Positions 11,781 through 57,536 of a DNA stretch of 64,000 nt are shown piece after piece. This stretch comes from Bacteroidota bacterium (lineage in GTDB: Bacteria > Bacteroidota > Bacteroidia > Bacteroidales > VadinHA17), in NCBI GenBank assembly GCA_029552825.1, contig JAKPDL010000187.1, forward strand, positions 1-64,000, written 5' to 3'. Position numbers and translations under genes: made by a program. Positions within the stretch are counted from its first letter, which is position 1. Each line of letters opens with the position of its first letter. Under the pieces are notes generated by a model. That model was not told the origin of the DNA. It worked only from the letters and a program-made list of their open reading frames with translations, and made no database searches.

Positions 11781-13571
11781 TCAGTCAAGCTTGAGCACTG
11801 CGAGGAAGGCTTGCTGGGGCACCTGGACGTTACCAATCTGACGCATGCGTTTCTTTCCTTTTTTCTGTTTTTCAAGCAGTTTCCTCTTTCTTGTAATATC
11901 ACCTCCGTAGCATTTTGCCGTTACGTCCTTTCTCAATGCCTTAACGGTTTCACGGGCAATAATTTTTGAGCCAATGGCGGCCTGAATTGCTATTTCGAAC
12001 TGCTGCCGCGGAATAAGTTCTTTCAGTTTCTGACACATTTTCCGACCAAACTCATAGGCATGGCTCCTGTGAATAAGTGTAGAGAGAGCATCAACCATTT
12101 CCCCATTAAGCAAAATATCAAGCCTTACAAGGTCGGCTTCTTTGTATGATGTATAATAATAATCAAATGATGCATATCCTCTTGAAATGCTTTTCAGTTT
12201 GTCATAAAAATCAAACACTATTTCCGAAAGAGGCATTTCACATGTTAGTTCAACCCGGTCGCGTGTAAGATAGACCTGATTGCGCATTGTACCCCGCTTA
12301 TCAATGCACAGATTCATAATTGGACCAACGTAATCGGCAAGAGTAATAATCTGTGCCATTATATAGGGTTCTTCAATTCTTTCAATCTGGGTAACTGGCG
12401 GTAATCCCGAAGGATTATGAACCTCTATCATCTCTCCCTTTTTTGTATAAACCCTGTAAGAGACATTTGGCACCGTTGTGATTACATCCATGTCAAATTC
12501 CCTGTCGAGCCTTTCCTGGACTATTTCCATATGCAGAAGGCCAAGAAAACCGCATCTGAAGCCAAAACCCAGAGCAGCAGAAGATTCTGGTACATAGGAA
12601 AGAGCAGCATCATTAAGCCGCAGTTTCTCAATTGATGATTTCAAATCCTCGAAGTCATCTGCATCAACAGGATAAATTCCGGCAAATACCATTGGCTTTA
12701 CTTCTTCGAATCCGGAAATTGCATTTTCACAGGGGCGATCAACATGAGTTATTGTATCCCCAACTCTGACTTCTGAGGATTCCTTGATACCAGAAATGAT
12801 GTACCCCACATCGCCAGTCCCCATAAATTCTTTCGGCACAAGTTTCAGCTTAAGAACCCCTATCTCATCAGCTTCATATTCCCTTCCTGTATTGAAAAAT
12901 TTTACATGATCCCCTTTACGTATTGAACCGTTGACAATTCTGTAATACGCTATTATTCCCCGGAAAGGATTATACATAGAATCAAATATGAGTGCCTGCA
13001 GCGGTGCATCAGGATCACCTGATGGAGGGGGTATCTTCTTTACTATGTCGTGAAGTATTCTGTCAACGCCCATACCAGTTTTGGCACTTGCTTCAATAAT
13101 ATCTTCTCTGGAACATCCCAGCAGGTCGACAATCTGATCTTTTACCTCTTCGGGCATGGCTGTAGGCATGTCCATCTTGTTGAGAACGGGTATTATCTCA
13201 AGATTATGGTCGAGTGCCAGATAGAGATTTGAAATTGTCTGTGCCTGTATTCCCTGTGTAGCATCCACAACCAGTATAGCACCCTCGCAGGCGGCTATTG
13301 CTCTGGAAACTTCGTATGAGAAATCAACATGCCCGGGTGTATCTATAAGATTAAGAATATAGTTTTCTCCTTCAAAGTAATACTCCATCTGGATGGCATG
13401 GCTCTTTATGGTAATACCCCTTTCCTTTTCAAGTTCCATGTTATCCAGAACCTGTTCGACCAGCTCTCTGTCTGAAAGAGTTTTGGTTTTTTCTAGCAGC
13501 CGGTCAGCCAGGGTACTTTTCCCGTGGTCGATATGGGCTATTATGCAGAAATTACGGATGTTTTTCATCAT
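11781..13571 (-). CDS. lepA: elongation factor 4 (LepA)
   Basis: Translational GTPase acting on the ribosome (back-translocation, or 30S assembly according to more recent views). The 596-residue length is standard. G1 is AHIDHGKST near the N-terminus, G2 lies in [11 protein letters not shown]3 is DTPGHVDF and G4 is NKMD. The LepA-specific C-terminal domain ends in [24 protein letters not shown]. Two consecutive ATGs (13571 and 13568) are possible starts; the family usually begins [17 protein letters not shown], so 13568 is equally good. It is transcribed alone, from a -7 box at 13592-13599. Confidence 0.97.
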
Positions 13572-13591
13572 CTGGCTGCTGAAATATGCTG

Positions 13592-13599
13592 CAAATATA
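13592..13599 (-). promoter_or_regulatory. -7 box of lepA
   Basis: TATATTTG on the minus strand is an exact TAnnTTTG match 20 nt ahead of the lepA start. No convincing TTTG element is found at the expected distance upstream. Confidence 0.5.
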
Positions 13600-13634
13600 A
13601 AGAATTAACAGGTATTAGCTTATAAGTCTCAAAT

Positions 13635-13675
13635 TAAAAGAAAAAGCCCTTCTGATGGTTTGGTTCAGAAGGGCT
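13635..13675 (-). terminator. groL terminator
   Basis: An 11-bp perfect stem AGCCCTTCTGA/TCAGAAGGGCT with a 9-nt loop, followed on the minus strand by TTTTTCTTTTAATTT. It lies 27 nt after the groL stop. This is a textbook intrinsic terminator. Confidence 0.9.
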
Positions 13676-13702
13676 ATGGCGAATATCCTGTAATGCTTTA
13701 TT

Positions 13703-15367
<1,665 letters not shown>

Positions 15368-15646
15368 TTACTGAATGAAAAGAATGTCAGACTGCGAGAG
15401 CAACAGGTACTCCTCGCCATCAATGGTTAATTCCTGTCCGGCATATTTGCCGTAAAGTACAACATCACCAACTTTGACTTCCATTTCTTCGTCTTTCTTT
15501 GGAGCTCCTACAAGAACAACCGTACCCTGACGGGGTTTTTCCTTTGCTGAATCCGGAATGATTATTCCGCTGGCAGTCTTAGCTTCAGCTTCATGAGGTT
15601 TAACGAGAACCTTTCCTGCCAATACTTTTCCTTTTATTTTTTTCAT
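15368..15646 (-). CDS. groS: co-chaperonin GroES
   Basis: A 92-residue cap of the GroEL chamber. The mobile loop AEAKTASGIIIPDSAKEK and GDVVLYGKYAGQELTIDGEEYLLL are typical. The start is the ATG at 15646 (MKKIKGKVLAGKVLVKPHEAEA); an in-frame ATG nine codons upstream would give a non-homologous extension. First gene of the groSL operon. The upstream 218-nt gap contains a sigma-54 promoter candidate, TGACA half-sites, and the secG terminator. Confidence 0.98.
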   Translation of the reverse strand: MKKIKGKVLAGKVLVKPHEAEAKTASGIIIPDSAKEKPRQGTVVLVGAPKKDEEMEVKVGDVVLYGKYAGQELTIDGEEYLLLSQSDILFIQ

Positions 15647-15693
15647 GTTATAACTGTTTTTAAGGTTTAACAATTATTTTGCTTCCCGTTATC

Positions 15694-15710
15694 TGCATTT
15701 TCCATGCCAA
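15694..15710 (-). promoter_or_regulatory. groS: sigma-54-type promoter of groSL
   Basis: The minus strand reads TTGGCATGGAAAATGCA. Compared with the sigma-54 consensus TTGGCACGnnnnTTGCA it has the invariant GG (-24) and GC (-12) separated by exactly 10 nt and only two mismatches. The -12 element is 48 nt ahead of the groS ATG. A sigma-54 activator gene lies 2 kb away in the same cluster. Confidence 0.65.
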
Positions 15711-15721
15711 TAATAATTTAA

Positions 15722-15754
15722 TGACATTTTGTAAGAAGCTGACACTGCCGCAAG
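15722..15754. promoter_or_regulatory. tandem TGACA sites upstream of groSL
   Basis: Two imperfect copies of TGACA-N4/5-G(T/C)AAG begin at 15722 and 15740, 18 bp apart, just upstream of the sigma-54 promoter candidate. Three more half-sites (TGTCA at 15835, TGACA at 15845 and 15853) lie in the secG terminator hairpin about 125-150 bp upstream. They may be enhancer sites for the neighbouring activator. This is inference from repetition and position. Confidence 0.45.
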
Positions 15755-15756
15755 AT

Positions 15757-15772
15757 TTATGTTGTAACATAA
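15757..15772. repeat. short inverted repeat in groSL upstream region
   Basis: TTATGTT-GT-AACATAA is a 7-bp perfect inverted repeat with a 2-nt centre. It lies just upstream of the tandem TGACA sites and may be an operator or chance AT-rich symmetry. Confidence 0.3.
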
Positions 15773-15818
15773 AAAAATCTGCCCATTGTAATTAATTTAT
15801 TAATTATCAACACTTAAA

Positions 15819-15860
15819 CACAAAAAACAAAAAATGTCAGTTCATGACAAACTGACATTT
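15819..15860 (-). terminator. secG terminator
   Basis: A 10-bp perfect stem AAATGTCAGT/ACTGACATTT with a 9-nt loop, 32 nt past the secG stop. On the minus strand it is followed by a long T-rich run (TTTTTGTTTTTTGTG). It separates the activator-lptE-TPR-secG unit from groSL. Its arms also contain the TGTCA/TGACA half-sites. Confidence 0.8.
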
Positions 15861-15891
15861 ATATTTTCAGTCAAAACTAAAGTTTTCTACC

Positions 15892-16248
15892 CTATTGATT
15901 TTTTTGCTGCGGATTTTCTGATGATGCAGGAGGTGTTGCAGAAGGAAGCGTTGGAATGGCATTTGGATCAATAGCATTCTGTATCTGCTGTTCCAGCCTG
16001 GAGCGCTGTGTTTCTCCTCCCCTTGGAATTGCAGCCGTTGCCAGAAGGGAGAGTACAAATATTGATATAGCAATCGTCCATGTCGATTTTTCAAGAAAAT
16101 CTGCTGTTTTTCTTATTCCCATCGACTGTCCTGCGGAGGTAAAATTTGCTGCCAGACCACCACCCTTTGAATTCTGAACCAGCACAATCATTATCTGCAG
16201 AATGCAGGCTATGATTATCAGAACCGAAATAAAAACATAAATTCCCAT
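15892..16248 (-). CDS. secG: preprotein translocase subunit SecG
   Basis: Small subunit of the SecYEG translocon that assists SecA-driven protein export. 118 residues with two membrane helices (about 3-23 and 55-75) joined by the conserved loop VLVQNSKGGGLAANF. The C-terminal tail is Pro/Gln-rich. It lies 8 nt after the TPR gene and ends the operon, with a strong terminator behind it. Confidence 0.93.
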   Translation of the reverse strand: MGIYVFISVLIIIACILQIMIVLVQNSKGGGLAANFTSAGQSMGIRKTADFLEKSTWTIAISIFVLSLLATAAIPRGGETQRSRLEQQIQNAIDPNAIPTLPSATPPASSENPQQKNQ

Positions 16249-16256
16249 TTTCAGTT

Positions 16257-17273
16257 TTATTTTATAAGTTTTTTGATTTCCTCAATCCGGGATGCAAAGT
16301 AACTACTTTTTTCCGGATATTTCAAACTCAGTTTCTCGTAAATATCAATAGCTTTTGAAAAATAGCCCTGACTAACATATATTTTTGCAAGGGTTTCTGT
16401 TACAAACCCGCCGGTTTCTTCGGTAAATGGTCTGGAAATATCTACAAGGGGTTCATCTCTCTTTTCCCTGACAGGTTCAATCTTCGGATTTGATAGAATA
16501 AATCTTTCAATAAGTTCCGCCTGTGAAAGTGGTTTACTTACCTCAGTTACGTCATTATTAGAAGTATCAACTTCAGAGGTTAACTCCAGAGTTATTTCTG
16601 CCGGAATTTCAGAGGGTATCTCAGCAGGAACTTCCTGTAGCAATTCGGGAGGAATTTCGGCAGGTATTTCTTCCGGAATCTCTTCCGGAGTACCTGAAAC
16701 AGGTTTACTTTCATCCAGCTCAAGTATATCCAGGCTCTTTCCCTGTGTAATTGAAGGATCAATGTAAACCAGGGATTCCTTTATCGTTTCATCCCCATCT
16801 TCGTAAATTATTGTAACTGTTGCAGATTCATCTATGTTAGAGTCGGTTGCCAGTATTGTGGTTTTTACCCTTCCCGGTGCTTTCCTTCCTGAGGCCAGGG
16901 CTACTTCTTCCTCCTCACGTTCAAGCATCCTTATTACCTCTTCACTGTTCCTGGCAGTATCGAGAACAACCTGCTGGCTATCCGGAACATCTGGTATTGT
17001 TATTTTTACTACAGGCTTTTCCATACCTGTTATCCTGGTGTTGACAGGATGCAGAAGATAATATAGCACCTCTCTGCTCGCAACGAAAAGTGCTGATTGA
17101 CGAAGCTGATTTTCAAACCTCACATCACCGGAAGTGTGCATTCCCTTAAGCAACAGAAGATGAGCACTCTGAAACCACGGATATATCCCCACCAGCTCTC
17201 TAAGCTCAGCAGTAACACCCTGGTTAATCTTTCCGGGATCCTTTAAAAGATTCAGAAAATCAGACCTATTCAT
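16257..17273 (-). CDS. TPR-like protein with EIP-rich linker
   Basis: A 338-residue, apparently cytoplasmic protein common in Bacteroidota next to secG and lptE; function unknown. The N-terminus (MNRSDFLNLLKDPGKI...YPWFQSAHLLLLKG) is helical. A low-complexity acidic linker (about residues 198-230) repeats the unit EIPxE/EIPAEI about six times. The C-terminal 50 residues (FVTETLAKIYVSQGYFSKAIDIYEKLSLKYPEKSSYFASRI) form one clear tetratricopeptide repeat, suggesting a binding or scaffold role. It follows the lptE-like gene after 6 nt. Confidence 0.75.
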   Translation of the reverse strand: MNRSDFLNLLKDPGKINQGVTAELRELVGIYPWFQSAHLLLLKGMHTSGDVRFENQLRQSALFVASREVLYYLLHPVNTRITGMEKPVVKITIPDVPDSQQVVLDTARNSEEVIRMLEREEEEVALASGRKAPGRVKTTILATDSNIDESATVTIIYEDGDETIKESLVYIDPSITQGKSLDILELDESKPVSGTPEEIPEEIPAEIPPELLQEVPAEIPSEIPAEITLELTSEVDTSNNDVTEVSKPLSQAELIERFILSNPKIEPVREKRDEPLVDISRPFTEETGGFVTETLAKIYVSQGYFSKAIDIYEKLSLKYPEKSSYFASRIEEIKKLIK

Positions 17274-17279
17274 CTTCTT

Positions 17280-17816
17280 TTACCAGTTAACGAATGCTGC
17301 ATTAAAAATATCCTCAACGAGTAATGCAATTATTTTTTCCGAAAGATCCTTTTCAACATCACTCAGATTAAGTCTGCTATCATAATCTTCGTATCTCGAA
17401 AACGTCTTTTCAAAATTATATTGAGGTTCAACACTATTAGTAAATTTAACCTTCACCGTAATGGTAAACCTGTTCATTGCCGCTCTTGAATCGGCTCCGA
17501 CGGTTAGCGGCCGGGTATTGTAATCTGTTATTTCTCCTTCAAAATTGACATCACCGAAGCCGTTCACAAGGCTCAGCCGGGTTTGTGCCCTGCATTTGTC
17601 AATAAGTGCGTCGGTCAATGCCTGACTGAGACCGGGCTGAACAAGACTCGCCCTGTTCTGAAAATATTGTACACTCAGAGTCTTTACCTGTGGTGAAATA
17701 CTGGCGCCTGAAAAAGAATATGAGACCCTGCAGCCGCTGGCTGAAAAAAATAGCAGAACGATTAGTACAGAGGCATAGATGCGTTTAATCAGGAAATATT
17801 TACATGTTAATACCAT
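17280..17816 (-). CDS. lptE: LptE-like LPS-assembly lipoprotein
   Basis: A 178-residue lipoprotein with an N-terminal hydrophobic stretch ending in the lipobox SASGC (Cys at about residue 29), followed by VSYSFSGASISPQVKTLSVQYFQNRA. This matches the Bacteroidota LptE family, whose members plug LptD and help insert lipopolysaccharide in the outer membrane. The C-terminal half is beta-rich. The start overlaps the 3' end of the sigma-54 activator gene by 17 nt, so translation is coupled. The assignment rests on N-terminal pattern, size and gene order; overall similarity to proteobacterial LptE is low. Confidence 0.82.
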   Translation of the reverse strand: MVLTCKYFLIKRIYASVLIVLLFFSASGCRVSYSFSGASISPQVKTLSVQYFQNRASLVQPGLSQALTDALIDKCRAQTRLSLVNGFGDVNFEGEITDYNTRPLTVGADSRAAMNRFTITVKVKFTNSVEPQYNFEKTFSRYEDYDSRLNLSDVEKDLSEKIIALLVEDIFNAAFVNW

Positions 17817-19038
17817 ACTCTTTTATTTTGCGGTACAATGTCCGTTCGGATATACCCAGCTCCTTTGCAGCCTGTTTTCGCTTGCGGTTATGCTTTTCAA
17901 GTGCTTTCACAATTAGTTCTGCTTCTTTTTCAGAAAGAGACAATGACTCTTCCACAATCTCTTCTGTATCCTGAATATCAGCTGAATGTCTTGATTTAAA
18001 ATCAACTGCAGTCCCCTGAACAGAAGTAGCTGGAGTTGATTCGATCTTTGCTTCTCCGTAGAGGTTTCTGATTACTCCTGTATATTCCTGCTTGAAATTC
18101 ATATCTCCTTCCTTTTCAATCATTCCAAGTACCAGTTTCTTAAGGTCATTAACATCATTTCTCATATCAAACAGAATCTTATATAGTATTTCCCTCTCGG
18201 ATGAAAAAGATTTCTCATCGGGTTGCCTCATCACAACAGGCAACTTCACTGCTGAATAATCTGGAAGATAGCGGCGCAGAATCTCTTCCGTTATTTCTCT
18301 TTCATTTTCAATAATTGAAATCTGTTCGGTAATGTTTTTAAGCTGCCTTACGTTGCCGGGCCAGTCATAACTGAGCAGCATAGCCTGAGCTCCCGGGGTA
18401 AGACGAATAGGTGGCATCCGGTAACGTTCTGCAAAATCGGCAGCAAACTTTCTGAAAAGAAGAATAATATCTTCCCCCCTTTCCCTGAGAGCCGGAATCT
18501 TAATAGGAACTGTATTAAGCCTGTAAAACAGATCCTCTCTGAATTTGCCTTCAGCAATCAGAACCGGCAAATCAACATTTGTTGCAGCAATAACCCTAAC
18601 GTTTGTCTTCTGCACTTTGGAAGAACCCACACGGATAAATTCACCTGTTTCAAGAACCCTTAGAAGTCGAACCTGGGTTGAGAGCGGGAGTTCACTCACC
18701 TCATCCAGAAATATTGTTCCACCGTCGGCAACCTCAAAATATCCCTTGCGGCTGTCAGTGGCTCCGGTAAAAGCTCCCTTTTCATGCCCGAACAGTTCCG
18801 AATCAATAGTTCCTTCAGGTATTGCCCCACAGTTTACAGGTATATACTGCCCGTGCTTTCTGGTACTGTAACTATGAATAACCTGTGGAAAAATCTCTTT
18901 ACCTGTTCCACTTTCACCTGTAATAAGTACAGAAAGGTCGGTAGGAGCTACCTGAACTGCTATGTCGAGGGCCCGGTTAAGACCGGGATGATTCCCTATT
19001 ATCCCAAATCTCTGTTTAATGCTTTGCAGATCTCTCAT
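17800..19038 (-). CDS. sigma-54-dependent transcriptional activator
   Basis: NtrC-type AAA+ activator (412 residues) that remodels sigma-54 RNA polymerase. Walker A is GESGTGKE at 41-48, the GAFTGA loop is at 88-93, followed by GGTIFLDEVSELP (Walker B) and the arginine-finger region FREDLFYRLN. The C-terminal Fis-like helix-turn-helix is KQAAKELGISERTLYRKIKEYG. It has no N-terminal receiver, GAF or PAS domain: the AAA+ core starts almost at residue 12, so its activity is probably set by level or by a partner. It heads the lptE-TPR-secG unit, and the adjacent groSL promoter is a plausible target. Confidence 0.95.
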   Translation of the reverse strand: MRDLQSIKQRFGIIGNHPGLNRALDIAVQVAPTDLSVLITGESGTGKEIFPQVIHSYSTRKHGQYIPVNCGAIPEGTIDSELFGHEKGAFTGATDSRKGYFEVADGGTIFLDEVSELPLSTQVRLLRVLETGEFIRVGSSKVQKTNVRVIAATNVDLPVLIAEGKFREDLFYRLNTVPIKIPALRERGEDIILLFRKFAADFAERYRMPPIRLTPGAQAMLLSYDWPGNVRQLKNITEQISIIENEREITEEILRRYLPDYSAVKLPVVMRQPDEKSFSSEREILYKILFDMRNDVNDLKKLVLGMIEKEGDMNFKQEYTGVIRNLYGEAKIESTPATSVQGTAVDFKSRHSADIQDTEEIVEESLSLSEKEAELIVKALEKHNRKRKQAAKELGISERTLYRKIKEYGINM

Positions 19039-19895: not shown

Positions 19896-19951
19896 TCCAG
19901 GTGAAACTTTTGCACAGTTTTTGCAGTATAAATGTTTGAAGCAGATAAATA

Positions 19952-52766: not shown

Positions 52767-55700
52767 ATGGATTTCATCATTAAAAGGAAGGTACTTGTAA
52801 GTATGCTCTTTCTGGGGCTCACGATGATGGGCTATGTTTCATACAAACAGCTCCCGGTAGAACTATTTCCAAATGCAGAACTACCCCTTCTGATTGTACA
52901 GGTAACCACTCCTCTGGAAATGGATCCTGCTTACATCGAACAACAGGCAGTCATCCCGGTAGAGGGTGCGATTGGAACTATTGAAGGAGTGGAAAAAATT
53001 GAATCAAATGTCACTTCACGTTATGGTACAGTTATCATCTATTTCAACCAGAAAGCAAATCTGAAATATTCAAACCTGAAATTGCAGGAGAAAATTGACA
53101 TAGTTAGAAATTCCATTCCCGAAGAATTTATTATTAATGTCATCAAAATAGACCTGGAACAGATTACAGGTCAATTCATGGACCTTCAGGTAAGAGGCGA
53201 GGGTGGAATTGACCGTATAAGGAATATTGCCGACCGTGAAATAAAGCCAGAATTTGAAAATCTTGACGGAATTGCCGGTGTGGAAGTATTCGGAGGCAGG
53301 GAAAATTCTATCGAAATAAGGCTCAACGAAAAAGCCTGCAAGGCATACGGCGTAACAATGAACCAGGTAAGAAATCTGCTGAACAGTTATTCGCGAGACA
53401 AGACTTTTGTGGGAAGGGTTGTTGATGGTGCCAACAGGTACTTTGTCAATATCACATCCGAGTATACTGACGTCTCCGAAATCGGAAATATAATAATTAA
53501 TAAGGAAGGTCCTGTCCTGCTAAAAGACATAGCCGAAATATTTTTTGGTGTAAAGGAAGAAACCTCTTACAGCAGGATAAATGGAATGGATGCTGTCACA
53601 ATTACTCTGGTAAATGACAATCAGGCAAACACAATAGATCTCTCTCATAAAGCTGCCGCACTTGTAAACAGTCTCAATCAGAAACTTAAGCCGCTCGGTG
53701 TTGAAATAGTTATACAAAACAACACGACAGAAGTACTTGAAAGAAATATCAATCAGATAATTAGCCTGGCTATTACGGGAGGCATTCTTGCTATTGTGGT
53801 TTTATGGTTTTTCCTGCGTAACCTCAGGCTTGTTATGATAATAGGAGTATCTATTCCCGTATCAGTATATACAGCTTTTAATTTCTTCTATGGAGCAGGG
53901 ATATCAATAAATAGTCTCACACTGGTGGGAATGGCTCTTGCAGTTGGTATGCTGGTGGACAATTCGGTTGTTGTACTTGAAAATATATACAGGCTGTCGG
54001 GTCAGGGTTTTATTCCTGAACAAGCTGTGAAGACCGGTACCAGAGAAGTCAGGAAAGCAATTATAGCCGCAACATTAACTACAATTATAGTTTTTACACC
54101 TTTTGTGTTTTCTGGCAATTACCTTATTAAAATAATTGGAAAGAATATAGGTGTTTCGATAATTTCAACACTTTCAGTTTCGCTGCTTGCAGCTCTTATG
54201 CTAATTCCGATGGCCACATATTATCTCCTTAATGTTAAAGGAGGCAGGTCGGAAATTTTCAAAAATCTTTCAATACACAACAGGCTGGTTCAGGCTTATC
54301 ATCTGATACTCAAAGCCTGTATGAGAAAACCGGCCGCTACAATAATAGGCACTCTTGTGGTTTTCTTTGCAGCTCTTCTGACAAGCCTCACATTAAGTAT
54401 AAGCTCAACCCGGGAAGTGGATACTCCGAATTTCAGGCTCTCGGTGAGGATGCCCTCAGGCTCCACTTTAGAGAAAACCGATGCAGTAGTTGCGGAGATA
54501 GAATCGCGTCTTGCCACATTACCTGAAAAAGGAGATGTAATAAGTCGCATTGAAGAAGAGCAGGCTACGGTAACAGTAACTCTACCTGACGACTGGAAGA
54601 AAAAGACAAAAAGAAGTCTGCCTGAAATCAAAAACGATATAAGTGAAAGGGTTAAAAACATTACTCAGGCTGAAATTACCATGGATGAGATTTCCGCCGG
54701 AGGAGGATACAGTTCGGGGGGTGCAGGCGGCGGAACAAATCCTGGTGCCGGCTTCCTTAACCTGCTAGGTATAGGCACTCAACGAGAAAGTATAATAATA
54801 AAGGGCCAGAACTTCGACCAGATGAAAATTCTTGCCGATGACATCAAATCATATCTCGACGACCTCTCAACAATCAGCAGCTCAAGTGTCAATGTACAGG
54901 ATAACCGACCTGAAGTCCAGCTTCATTTCGACATGGACTATATAAACAGAAACAATTTTACCCTTGCCAACCTTGCAACAGCATTGAGCACCTTCGGCAG
55001 AGAATATTCATCAGGTGCAAGATTCCGTCAGGGAACAGAAACTTACGATATAATACTGAAATATAACGATGAAGCAGCACAGGAAAACCAAAATTCAGAA
55101 AAAACCCTCGAAGACCTTAAACACCTCGAAGTAACAAACCCCACCGGCTCTGTGATGGAGTTACAGGAACTGGCAAGAATCGTCTTTTCTGCAGGACCGG
55201 GCAATATACACCGGGAAAATCAGGAAAAAAGAGTTACTGTTACATACAATTTCACAGAAGAAATAAGAAATTCAAAAGATCTTCTCGAGTCAGCCAGGGC
55301 AGAAGTGGAGGCAATTGTGGCTGACCTCAACATACCATCCGGAATAGCTGTAGAAGTAGTGCATGAAGAGAACGAGCTGAAAGAGTTCTACAAGCTTATT
55401 GGCATAGCCTTTGTACTTATTTACATGATTCTTGCAGCAGTGTTTCAATCGCTTACTGTTCCGGTAGTGTTGCTTTTCAGCATTCCTCTCGCTGCCCTCG
55501 GAAGCCTCCTGGCATTAATTCTCACCGGTAACTCCCTTCTCAATGCCAATACACTTACCGGTTTTCTTATCCTGCTGGGGATAGTGGTAAATAACGGGAT
55601 AATACTTATCGATTACACAAAAACTCTGCGTAATCGTGGTTACCGCAGGTCAAGAGCACTGATGATGGCAGGAGTGGCACGAATAAGGCCTATTATGATT

Positions 55701-57536
55701 ACAGCCCTTACCACTATTCTGGCACTTCTGCCTCTTGCAATGGGACAGGCAGAATATGTATCAGTAATCGGCGCTTCATTCGCAATTACAGTAATAGGTG
55801 GATTGTCACTTTCTACAATGCTGACACTTGTTTTTATTCCCACATTTTACTCGGGCCTCGAAAATGCAATCGACTGGATCAAATCTCTCAGCACAAGAAC
55901 CAAAATTATTCAGCTCTGCGCCCTTGCTGCCCTCCTCTATCTGGTGTTCACATTTGTCAATACCTTCATCTGGCAGCTTATCACAACAATTCTATCTGTT
56001 ATAATTGTTCCTGCTGCCACATGGTTCATTATCAACAGCTTGCGCAAAGCAAAAGAAAGTGTTATTCCTCAGAACGAGCCAATCAACATCCAGATACAGA
56101 GCCTTGTTAAAATATACGATAGGGAGAGCCGATGGTTAAGGGAATGGAAAGCAGGAGCAAGAATCAGACGCAGACTCGGACTCGAAAAAGAGATACGCTC
56201 CCTGAAGGATATGGAAAATATGACATGGCAACTCCCACTATTCGGCTTTTTGATCTATTTCACGTACTTTTACCTTTCAAAGGGATTCTGGGTATTCTTT
56301 TTCAGTATTATCACATGGCTGGCACTATTCGGAATATGGTCCTCATTCCGCCAATTTTTAACCAACCTGGCAAGTAAGAATCAAAAACTTCCTGTAAAAA
56401 ATATTTTCCGGATAATCGAATTTATTGTTATGTGGTTCGTACCACTGTTTAATCTGGTTTTCTTTCAGATTCAGTGGAAAAACATTGCAACAGTGCTTAT
56501 TCTTGGTTTTGTATGGTATGCTTCCATTCTTGTTTATATAACAGGAGAGAAGCTTACGCGCGAAAACATAGACATTTACAGACTGCAGGGTCGGTTCAGG
56601 GAACTCAGAAAAACATTTTATAAAATAGTTTTAATGGTGCCTCTTATCGGGAAAAGGAAAAAGCCCTTCAAGGCTCTCAACTGTGTAAGCATGACCATCG
56701 GAAGTGGAATGTTCGGATTGCTTGGGCCTAACGGGGCAGGCAAGACAACCCTTATGCGCATTATTTGCGGTATCCTTGAACAGAGCTACGGCAAGGTATG
56801 GATTAACGGAATTGACACCCAGAAGAAAAGAGAGGAACTTCAGGGTTTGATAGGCTACCTGCCTCAGGAGTTCGGAACCTATGAGAATATGACCGCCCAC
56901 GAATATCTTCATTATATGGCAATACTCAAAAACATAACCGACCCTGAGGTGAGGGAAGAGCGCGTCACTTATGCCCTTAATGCCGTTCATATGGCCGACA
57001 GAAGATTTGAAAAAATCAGTTCGTACTCGGGAGGCATGAAGCAGAGAATAGGAATAGCTCAGATTTTGCTCCACCTTCCGAGAATCCTTGTGGTTGATGA
57101 ACCAACTGCAGGTCTCGATCCGAGAGAAAGAATAAGGTTCCGAAACCTCCTTGTTGAACTCAGCAGGGAAAGAGTAGTTATCTTTTCCACCCATATAATC
57201 GAAGATATCTCAAGTTCATGCACTCAGGTTGCTGTACTCGACAGAGGTAACCTAAAATATCTGGGAAGACCTATTGATATGGCGGTAAGTGCAGAGGGCC
57301 ATGTCTGGCAAATAACTATGCACGCATCAGAATTCAAAGAGTTCATAAAAGATCATCTGGTCGTTCACCATATGTCGGAAGGCAATATGGTTAAACTGAG
57401 ATGCATATCTGAAGAAAAACCATGGGAAACAGCCATTAAAGTCACGCCTAACCTTGAAGATGCTTACCTGTGGCTACTCAGAAGGAAAAACAACGGAGAA
57501 AACATATTACCGGAGACAAACAGACTAATGCAATGA
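52767..57536 (+). CDS. RND efflux transporter fused to an ABC ATPase
   Basis: A 1589-residue single reading frame. Residues ~1-1030 are a complete RND pump; TM4 is GMALAVGMLVDNSVVVLENI with D398, and the last RND helix is near SLSTMLTLVFIPTFYSG. Two extra helices follow (~1043-1090). At 1107-1117 NIQIQSLVKIY resembles an ATPase first strand. Then come ~180 inserted residues with about four helices. The ATPase core continues from FKALNCVSM: Walker A GPNGAGKT 1320-1327, signature YSGGMKQ from 1420, Walker B ILVVDEP from 1440, switch His1476. All ATPase motifs are intact. Its core and tail resemble the stand-alone ATPase at the start of the locus. Start ATG is 16 nt after the first pump. Confidence 0.95.
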   Translation: MDFIIKRKVLVSMLFLGLTMMGYVSYKQLPVELFPNAELPLLIVQVTTPLEMDPAYIEQQAVIPVEGAIGTIEGVEKIESNVTSRYGTVIIYFNQKANLKYSNLKLQEKIDIVRNSIPEEFIINVIKIDLEQITGQFMDLQVRGEGGIDRIRNIADREIKPEFENLDGIAGVEVFGGRENSIEIRLNEKACKAYGVTMNQVRNLLNSYSRDKTFVGRVVDGANRYFVNITSEYTDVSEIGNIIINKEGPVLLKDIAEIFFGVKEETSYSRINGMDAVTITLVNDNQANTIDLSHKAAALVNSLNQKLKPLGVEIVIQNNTTEVLERNINQIISLAITGGILAIVVLWFFLRNLRLVMIIGVSIPVSVYTAFNFFYGAGISINSLTLVGMALAVGMLVDNSVVVLENIYRLSGQGFIPEQAVKTGTREVRKAIIAATLTTIIVFTPFVFSGNYLIKIIGKNIGVSIISTLSVSLLAALMLIPMATYYLLNVKGGRSEIFKNLSIHNRLVQAYHLILKACMRKPAATIIGTLVVFFAALLTSLTLSISSTREVDTPNFRLSVRMPSGSTLEKTDAVVAEIESRLATLPEKGDVISRIEEEQATVTVTLPDDWKKKTKRSLPEIKNDISERVKNITQAEITMDEISAGGGYSSGGAGGGTNPGAGFLNLLGIGTQRESIIIKGQNFDQMKILADDIKSYLDDLSTISSSSVNVQDNRPEVQLHFDMDYINRNNFTLANLATALSTFGREYSSGARFRQGTETYDIILKYNDEAAQENQNSEKTLEDLKHLEVTNPTGSVMELQELARIVFSAGPGNIHRENQEKRVTVTYNFTEEIRNSKDLLESARAEVEAIVADLNIPSGIAVEVVHEENELKEFYKLIGIAFVLIYMILAAVFQSLTVPVVLLFSIPLAALGSLLALILTGNSLLNANTLTGFLILLGIVVNNGIILIDYTKTLRNRGYRRSRALMMAGVARIRPIMITALTTILALLPLAMGQAEYVSVIGASFAITVIGGLSLSTMLTLVFIPTFYSGLENAIDWIKSLSTRTKIIQLCALAALLYLVFTFVNTFIWQLITTILSVIIVPAATWFIINSLRKAKESVIPQNEPINIQIQSLVKIYDRESRWLREWKAGARIRRRLGLEKEIRSLKDMENMTWQLPLFGFLIYFTYFYLSKGFWVFFFSIITWLALFGIWSSFRQFLTNLASKNQKLPVKNIFRIIEFIVMWFVPLFNLVFFQIQWKNIATVLILGFVWYASILVYITGEKLTRENIDIYRLQGRFRELRKTFYKIVLMVPLIGKRKKPFKALNCVSMTIGSGMFGLLGPNGAGKTTLMRIICGILEQSYGKVWINGIDTQKKREELQGLIGYLPQEFGTYENMTAHEYLHYMAILKNITDPEVREERVTYALNAVHMADRRFEKISSYSGGMKQRIGIAQILLHLPRILVVDEPTAGLDPRERIRFRNLLVELSRERVVIFSTHIIEDISSSCTQVAVLDRGNLKYLGRPIDMAVSAEGHVWQITMHASEFKEFIKDHLVVHHMSEGNMVKLRCISEEKPWETAIKVTPNLEDAYLWLLRRKNNGENILPETNRLMQ

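Follow-up and report, generated by a model that had tools for sequence, protein, structure and literature searches.

The window analysed here, a 64,000-nucleotide stretch of a Bacteroidota genome, carries on its minus strand a cluster that reads, in order, activator, lptE, a repeat-like gene, secG, groES, groEL and lepA. ORF reading and domain search place groES (92 aa, ATG at 15646) at 15368–15646 and groEL (544 aa) at 13703–15337. Domain search also identified secG (15892–16248) and lptE (17280–17816), and between these two lies a conserved neighbour gene (16257–17273) with a repeat-like C-terminus that appears TPR-like by eye and has no Pfam match. The gene at 17800–19038 encodes an orphan sigma-54 activator built from an AAA+ domain, a lid and a Fis-type HTH. 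An Rfam search over positions 13500–17000 gave zero matches. Elsewhere in the window, on the plus strand at 52767–57536, a single 1589-aa ORF joins an AcrB-type RND permease (residues 2–1029) to an ABC-transporter ATPase domain (residues 1305–1448).

Between secG and groES, approximately 50 nt ahead of the groES ATG, lies the sequence TTGGCATGGAAAATGCA (15694–15710, minus strand), a -24/-12 element of the sigma-54 type recognised by sequence match, genome scan and conservation. Compared with the sigma-54 consensus as generally given, TGGCAC-N5-TTGCA, it has two mismatches, and it shows exactly the GG-N10-GC spacing that a sigma-54 promoter requires, just as an earlier note on this DNA had stated. 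The element is present in a single copy in the genome. The pattern TTGGCAYN6TGC matches the 3.38-Mb genome 15 times, versus 7 times for the reversed pattern; 14 of the 15 matches are located within ORFs, and the groES copy is the sole intergenic match in the whole genome. In the window we found one perfect match to TTGGCAYN6TGCA and four with one mismatch, but five matches were also reached in 17 of 100 shuffles, so one sequence by itself says little and conservation is the real test. Two near matches in the window were rejected, one at 19909 that is in a gap and fits poorly, and one at 55399 that falls within a transporter gene. A scan of the region for a housekeeping promoter gave no supported site.

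GroES matches were found in 108 of 116 relatives' genomes, and 200 bp upstream of groES were read in 70 of these: 53 from the same genus (own genome included), 6 from other genera of the family and 11 from other families of the order, a group that grew to 13 rows with the addition of L281 and L286 from another sample. A loose rule, TGGYAYN7G, is satisfied in 53/53 genus rows, 6/6 rows from the rest of the family and 13/13 from the rest of the order, and a strict rule, TGGYAYN7GC, in 27/53, 2/6 and 5/13, respectively. In other orders of the class, the loose rule holds in 38 and the strict rule in 11 of 45 rows, which represent 43 genomes, a weak second GroES copy (L291) having been dropped beforehand. 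These numbers exclude L286, which is also in the order group and matches both rules by eye; the script counts for the class are 39/46 and 12/46. Shuffling gave mean loose-rule counts of 2.2 (genus), 0.2 (family), 0.4 (order) and 1.3 (other orders of the class). The earlier note would have given up its reading had the element not been conserved in close relatives; it is conserved, throughout the genus and also in other families, other orders and endosymbionts.

Seven class rows miss the loose rule: five belong to family f51, and the other two come from genomes that have two GroES rows. The f51 genomes are the five, among the 43 from other orders, that miss the rule, and in two of them the activator lies away from groES. 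In three f51 loci (L248, L257, L258), TGGYAT ahead of groES is followed by TTTA, not by the GC box. A search of a named genome collection for the exact 18-mer TTTGGCATGTTTTTGGCT returned 19 loci, six of which are 54–81 bases ahead of groES, in five Blattabacterium cuenoti strains and one Bacteroidaceae MAG.

HrcA, the usual repressor of heat-shock chaperonin genes, is missing from these bacteria. No hrcA gene was detected in the own genome or in any of the 116 relatives, and the earlier note's statement that CIRCE is absent was borne out, with no match at up to three mismatches anywhere in the window. In a sample of the phylum, HrcA was found in none of the 73 genomes sampled from the class (the own genome, two of the same order and 70 of the same class), versus 174 of 223 genomes of other classes. 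For the other classes, the groES upstream region was read at 30 loci, which are the best-scoring GroES matches and not a random draw. Among these, all 17 HrcA-plus rows have CIRCE, 13 by rule and four in a degenerate form recognised by eye, and none has the element, while the 13 HrcA-minus rows, all from family f71, have a near-canonical TTTGGTACGG..GTTGC and no CIRCE (L077, L078, L080, L082, L086–L088, L090, L092–L094, L096, L097). CIRCE and the -24/-12 element are thus mutually exclusive, and the putative promoter element before groES is conserved across the class where HrcA is missing.

As an independent line of evidence, we looked at the reduced genomes of family f112, which are 0.2–0.6 Mb in size, with one of 1.3 Mb. 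The sample comprised 30 of the 55 RpoN-plus genomes and 13 RpoN-minus genomes, of which three were listed as such and ten were taken to be minus because the match table did not list them; two of the 13 have no GroES match, leaving 11 RpoN-minus rows. Every one of the 30 RpoN-plus genomes has exactly one strong activator match (E ~2e-64 or better), located 0.7–2.3 kb from groES. The RpoN-minus genomes have weak AAA matches or none, with the exception of G611, where a 280-aa sigma-54 AAA+ frame without an HTH (L149) is found on another contig of 19.6 kb, being either contamination or a remnant. The element was detected in 28/30 RpoN-plus and 0/11 RpoN-minus rows (Fisher p = 2e-8, kinship ignored). 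In the GroEL tree, the RpoN-minus genus g258 is nested with good support in RpoN-plus genera, and at least two switches of the RpoN label are required by supported branches. Ten clusters were laid out: the RpoN-plus order is miaB-activator-(lptE)-secG-groES-groEL, with secG not seen in G697, and the RpoN-minus order is miaB-(secG)-groES. Walczuchella (G705) and G697 (263,431 bp), which we take to be Uzinura, keep RpoN and the activator and have no good element at groES; theirs is at grpE. The joint loss of RpoN, activator and element supports the predicted sigma-54 dependence independently of the conservation data.

The genome has one rpoN, with an intact RpoN box (ARRTVAKYRE), and RpoN was found in 109 of the 116 relatives. 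The activator gene is located 2.1 kb upstream of groES-groEL, four genes away. Its product has an AAA+ domain at residues 13–179 with the GAFTGA motif of sigma-54 activators, and a Fis-type HTH at residues 368–408. The earlier note had announced an NtrC-type activator 2 kb away, and this holds for the AAA+ and HTH parts and for the distance, but domain search detected no N-terminal receiver or sensor domain, the AAA+ domain starting at residue 13, and the protein is thus not an NtrC proper. A different activator could in principle drive the promoter, the neighbouring gene being a mere passenger of the cluster. Indeed, the genome contains five sigma-54-activator (PF00158) matches, the activator is absent from the fetched stretch beside groES in G230 and G384, and G092, G305 and G176 nonetheless have the element with no activator near groES. 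However, the order activator-lptE-x-secG-groES is kept in 17 of 20 fetched stretches from relatives, the groES-linked activator is the sole strong one in 30/30 RpoN-plus endosymbionts, and it is lost together with RpoN, so we consider this explanation unlikely. G176 is the sole genome of f71, a family of another class, in which the neighbourhood was examined; there, groES is preceded by a near-canonical element but has no linked activator next to it.

The region ahead of the element is rich in TGWCA half-sites, which start at 15722, 15740, 15835, 15845 and 15853. The 193-bp gap here holds five of the window's ten intergenic TGWCA. The promoter-proximal half-site (15722–15726) is followed at 18 bp by a second (15740–15744), and 47/53 genus rows have an AAWTGDCA box in this proximal stretch. 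An intrinsic secG terminator (15832–15860, minus strand; 12-pair stem, -12.4 kcal/mol) contains three half-sites in its stem and loop, and its 3' arm harbours the fifth one (15835–15839). The remaining two (15853–15857 and 15845–15849) form the dyad TGTCA-GTT-TGTCA (15845–15857, minus strand), the probable activator site. All five half-sites of the earlier note are therefore real, and they are enriched in relatives; of its 18-bp tandem repeat, the recurrence of the pentamer 18 bp apart stands, but no pair of 18-mers reached 10/18 identity.

Over the 120 bp that precede the element, observed versus expected TGWCA counts were 115 versus 19.6 in the genus (n = 53), 14 versus 1.7 in the family (6 rows), 21 versus 3.6 in the order (13 rows), 82 versus 13.1 in the class (46 rows) and 45 versus 5.7 in RpoN-plus endosymbionts (n = 30), with 0 in the 11 RpoN-minus rows. 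HrcA-plus genomes likewise show an excess of TGWCA ahead of groES (15 versus 3.8), for which TTGACA -35 boxes are probably responsible; half-sites by themselves therefore lack specificity. As for spacing, no gap between TGDCA sites outnumbers the 3-bp one in any of the five groups (3-bp gap in genus 19/53, family 3/6, order 3/13, class 11/46, RpoN-plus endosymbionts 20/30), and the dyad's gap is the same as in the endosymbiont palindromes.

Lastly, we scanned four complete symbiont contigs, G424 (345 kb), G586 (621 kb, Blattabacterium-like), G705 (309,299 bp) and G697, with a site matrix built from non-endosymbiont sites. The groES site ranks first among intergenic sites in G424 and G586, but in G424 coding matches outscore it, and it is only eighth overall. 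In G705, the best intergenic site precedes grpE, and in G697 the best candidate precedes dnaK, setting aside a match resembling 16S rRNA. Five intergenic TGWCA-N3-TGWCA dyads were found in the four contigs: before groES in G424, before grpE in G586, G705 and G697, and before miaB in G586. All three grpE genes have a -24/-12-like element after the dyad, and -24/-12-like sites also precede lon in G424 and an Hsp90-like gene in G705. The groES dyad of G586 is degenerate (TGCCATATTGACA). In two of the four symbiont genomes, the clear predicted target of RpoN is grpE, not groES. Since TGACATAATGACA precedes miaB, the gene before the activator, in G586, these data suggest that the activator may regulate its own expression. 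Two Blattabacterium-like genomes carry the same sequence close to miaB and the activator (L223 855 and L136 50).

These palindromes bear on the question of whether the half-sites are merely the secG terminator, with no enhancer present and an activator that works without binding DNA. Three of the five half-sites are indeed within the 12-pair stem-loop, which is followed by T. But in the endosymbionts the dyad persists in palindromic form, with its halves 3 bp apart and not obviously a terminator, at grpE as well. In the window, both promoter-proximal half-sites fall outside the stem, and the activator carries a Fis-type HTH. Together these points make the terminator-only explanation quite improbable. 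Three half-sites followed by T4, a terminator-like arrangement, occur in 18/53 genus rows, and with the dyad inside the secG terminator it seems that terminator and enhancer use the same bases; an overlap of the two functions at 15832–15860 is thus possible.

The element itself might also be read differently, namely if the TTTGGCA...TATGC box were the operator of some repressor and transcription started from a Bacteroidota-type housekeeping promoter. The housekeeping sigma factor of Bacteroidota uses unusual promoter boxes, and the -12 half deviates from TTGC, being ATG in most genus members. However, the GG-N10-G register is preserved in the class, in endosymbionts and in the HrcA-minus family of another class, where the site is near-canonical (TTTGGTACGGAAGTTGCA), and the box vanishes together with RpoN; we find this reading very hard to sustain. 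The notion that this AT-rich intergenic region matches the pattern by accident, which might draw on half of the genome-wide pattern matches being expected by chance, is refuted by the element's occurrence in every genus row and beyond, and we give it practically no credence.

Taken as a whole, the data make it highly likely that groES-groEL has a sigma-54 promoter served by the linked activator at the upstream TGWCA-N3-TGWCA, as the local case of a class-wide circuit that replaces HrcA/CIRCE. The central claim of the earlier note, sigma-54 control of groSL, is supported by conservation of the element, presence of RpoN, absence of HrcA and CIRCE, synteny of the activator and co-loss in endosymbionts. 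RNA polymerase-sigma-54 would sit as a closed complex on the 15694–15710 element, from which transcription would start, and the AAA+ activator would most likely bind the upstream dyad, loop to the polymerase and open the promoter; we infer that the protein encoded at 17800–19038, one of five such activators in the genome, is the one that acts. The circuit would comprise groESL and grpE, probably also the operon of the activator itself, and possibly dnaK, htpG and lon, and it would presumably respond to protein-folding stress. Given that the activator has no sensor domain, control probably operates via the abundance of this protein or via a partner. Feedback of the chaperones on the activator could be imagined, though this is speculation.

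We also think it reasonably probable, judging from the genomes compared, that sigma-54 and one dedicated sensorless activator replaced HrcA in the class, and that Bacteroidota endosymbionts of 0.26–0.64 Mb keep RpoN for this reason, its irreducible job being expression of groESL and/or grpE and not nitrogen control; where both genes escape, RpoN and the activator would vanish together. Sigma-54 is usually taught as a factor for nitrogen, motility and the envelope. Here it would serve an entire class of bacteria as their standing switch for chaperones, with a candidate activator and binding site and with remnants of the circuit persisting in some very small genomes. If true, this would explain the retention of RpoN in minimal insect symbionts, for example those of cockroaches.

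HrcA/CIRCE is likewise one specific regulator dedicated to chaperonin genes, but it is a repressor whereas we propose an activator, and hrcA and CIRCE are missing here and present in most sampled genomes of other classes. The groESL3 operon of Bradyrhizobium, an extra chaperonin copy controlled by sigma-54 and NifA and tied to nitrogen fixation, shares sigma-54 and an AAA+ activator with the present case, in which, by contrast, the groESL is the conserved one linked to its activator, and that activator is sensorless. A similar architecture is that of PspF-type activators, which consist only of AAA+ and a Fis-type HTH, the same sensorless build as the protein encoded at 17800–19038; the partner PspA, by which PspF is held in envelope stress, is a feature of PspF.

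Among the papers found on sigma-54, groEL and HrcA in Bacteroidota, including Bacteroides, Blattabacterium and Uzinura, none names a groES-linked activator in its title or abstract. A survey of predicted Bacteroidota sigma-54 targets (PMC12316311; PLoS One 2025) reports enrichment of groES, groEL, grpE, dnaK, dnaJ, ibpA, Hsp90 and ATP-dependent protease genes, and describes GroES of B. thetaiotaomicron as sigma-54-dependent, citing for this its ref. 80, an entry that turns out in the reference list to be a paper on a Blattabacterium genome. The available portion of this survey gives no groES activator, no upstream site, no mention of HrcA (0 occurrences) and no explanation for RpoN in endosymbionts. 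Predicted sigma-54 chaperone promoters in Bacteroidota are thus already known, and what appears to be new, as far as that portion goes, is the dedicated activator, its site, the exchange for HrcA and the endosymbiont link. Retention of RpoN in Walczuchella, Uzinura and Blattabacterium has been called unusual, with nitrogen regulation suggested for Walczuchella, in the part available of PMC3971599. A 33-bp intergenic stretch before GroEL resisted pyrosequencing, probably because of secondary structure, according to the accessible text of PMC2768785, and such a stretch would fit the palindrome.
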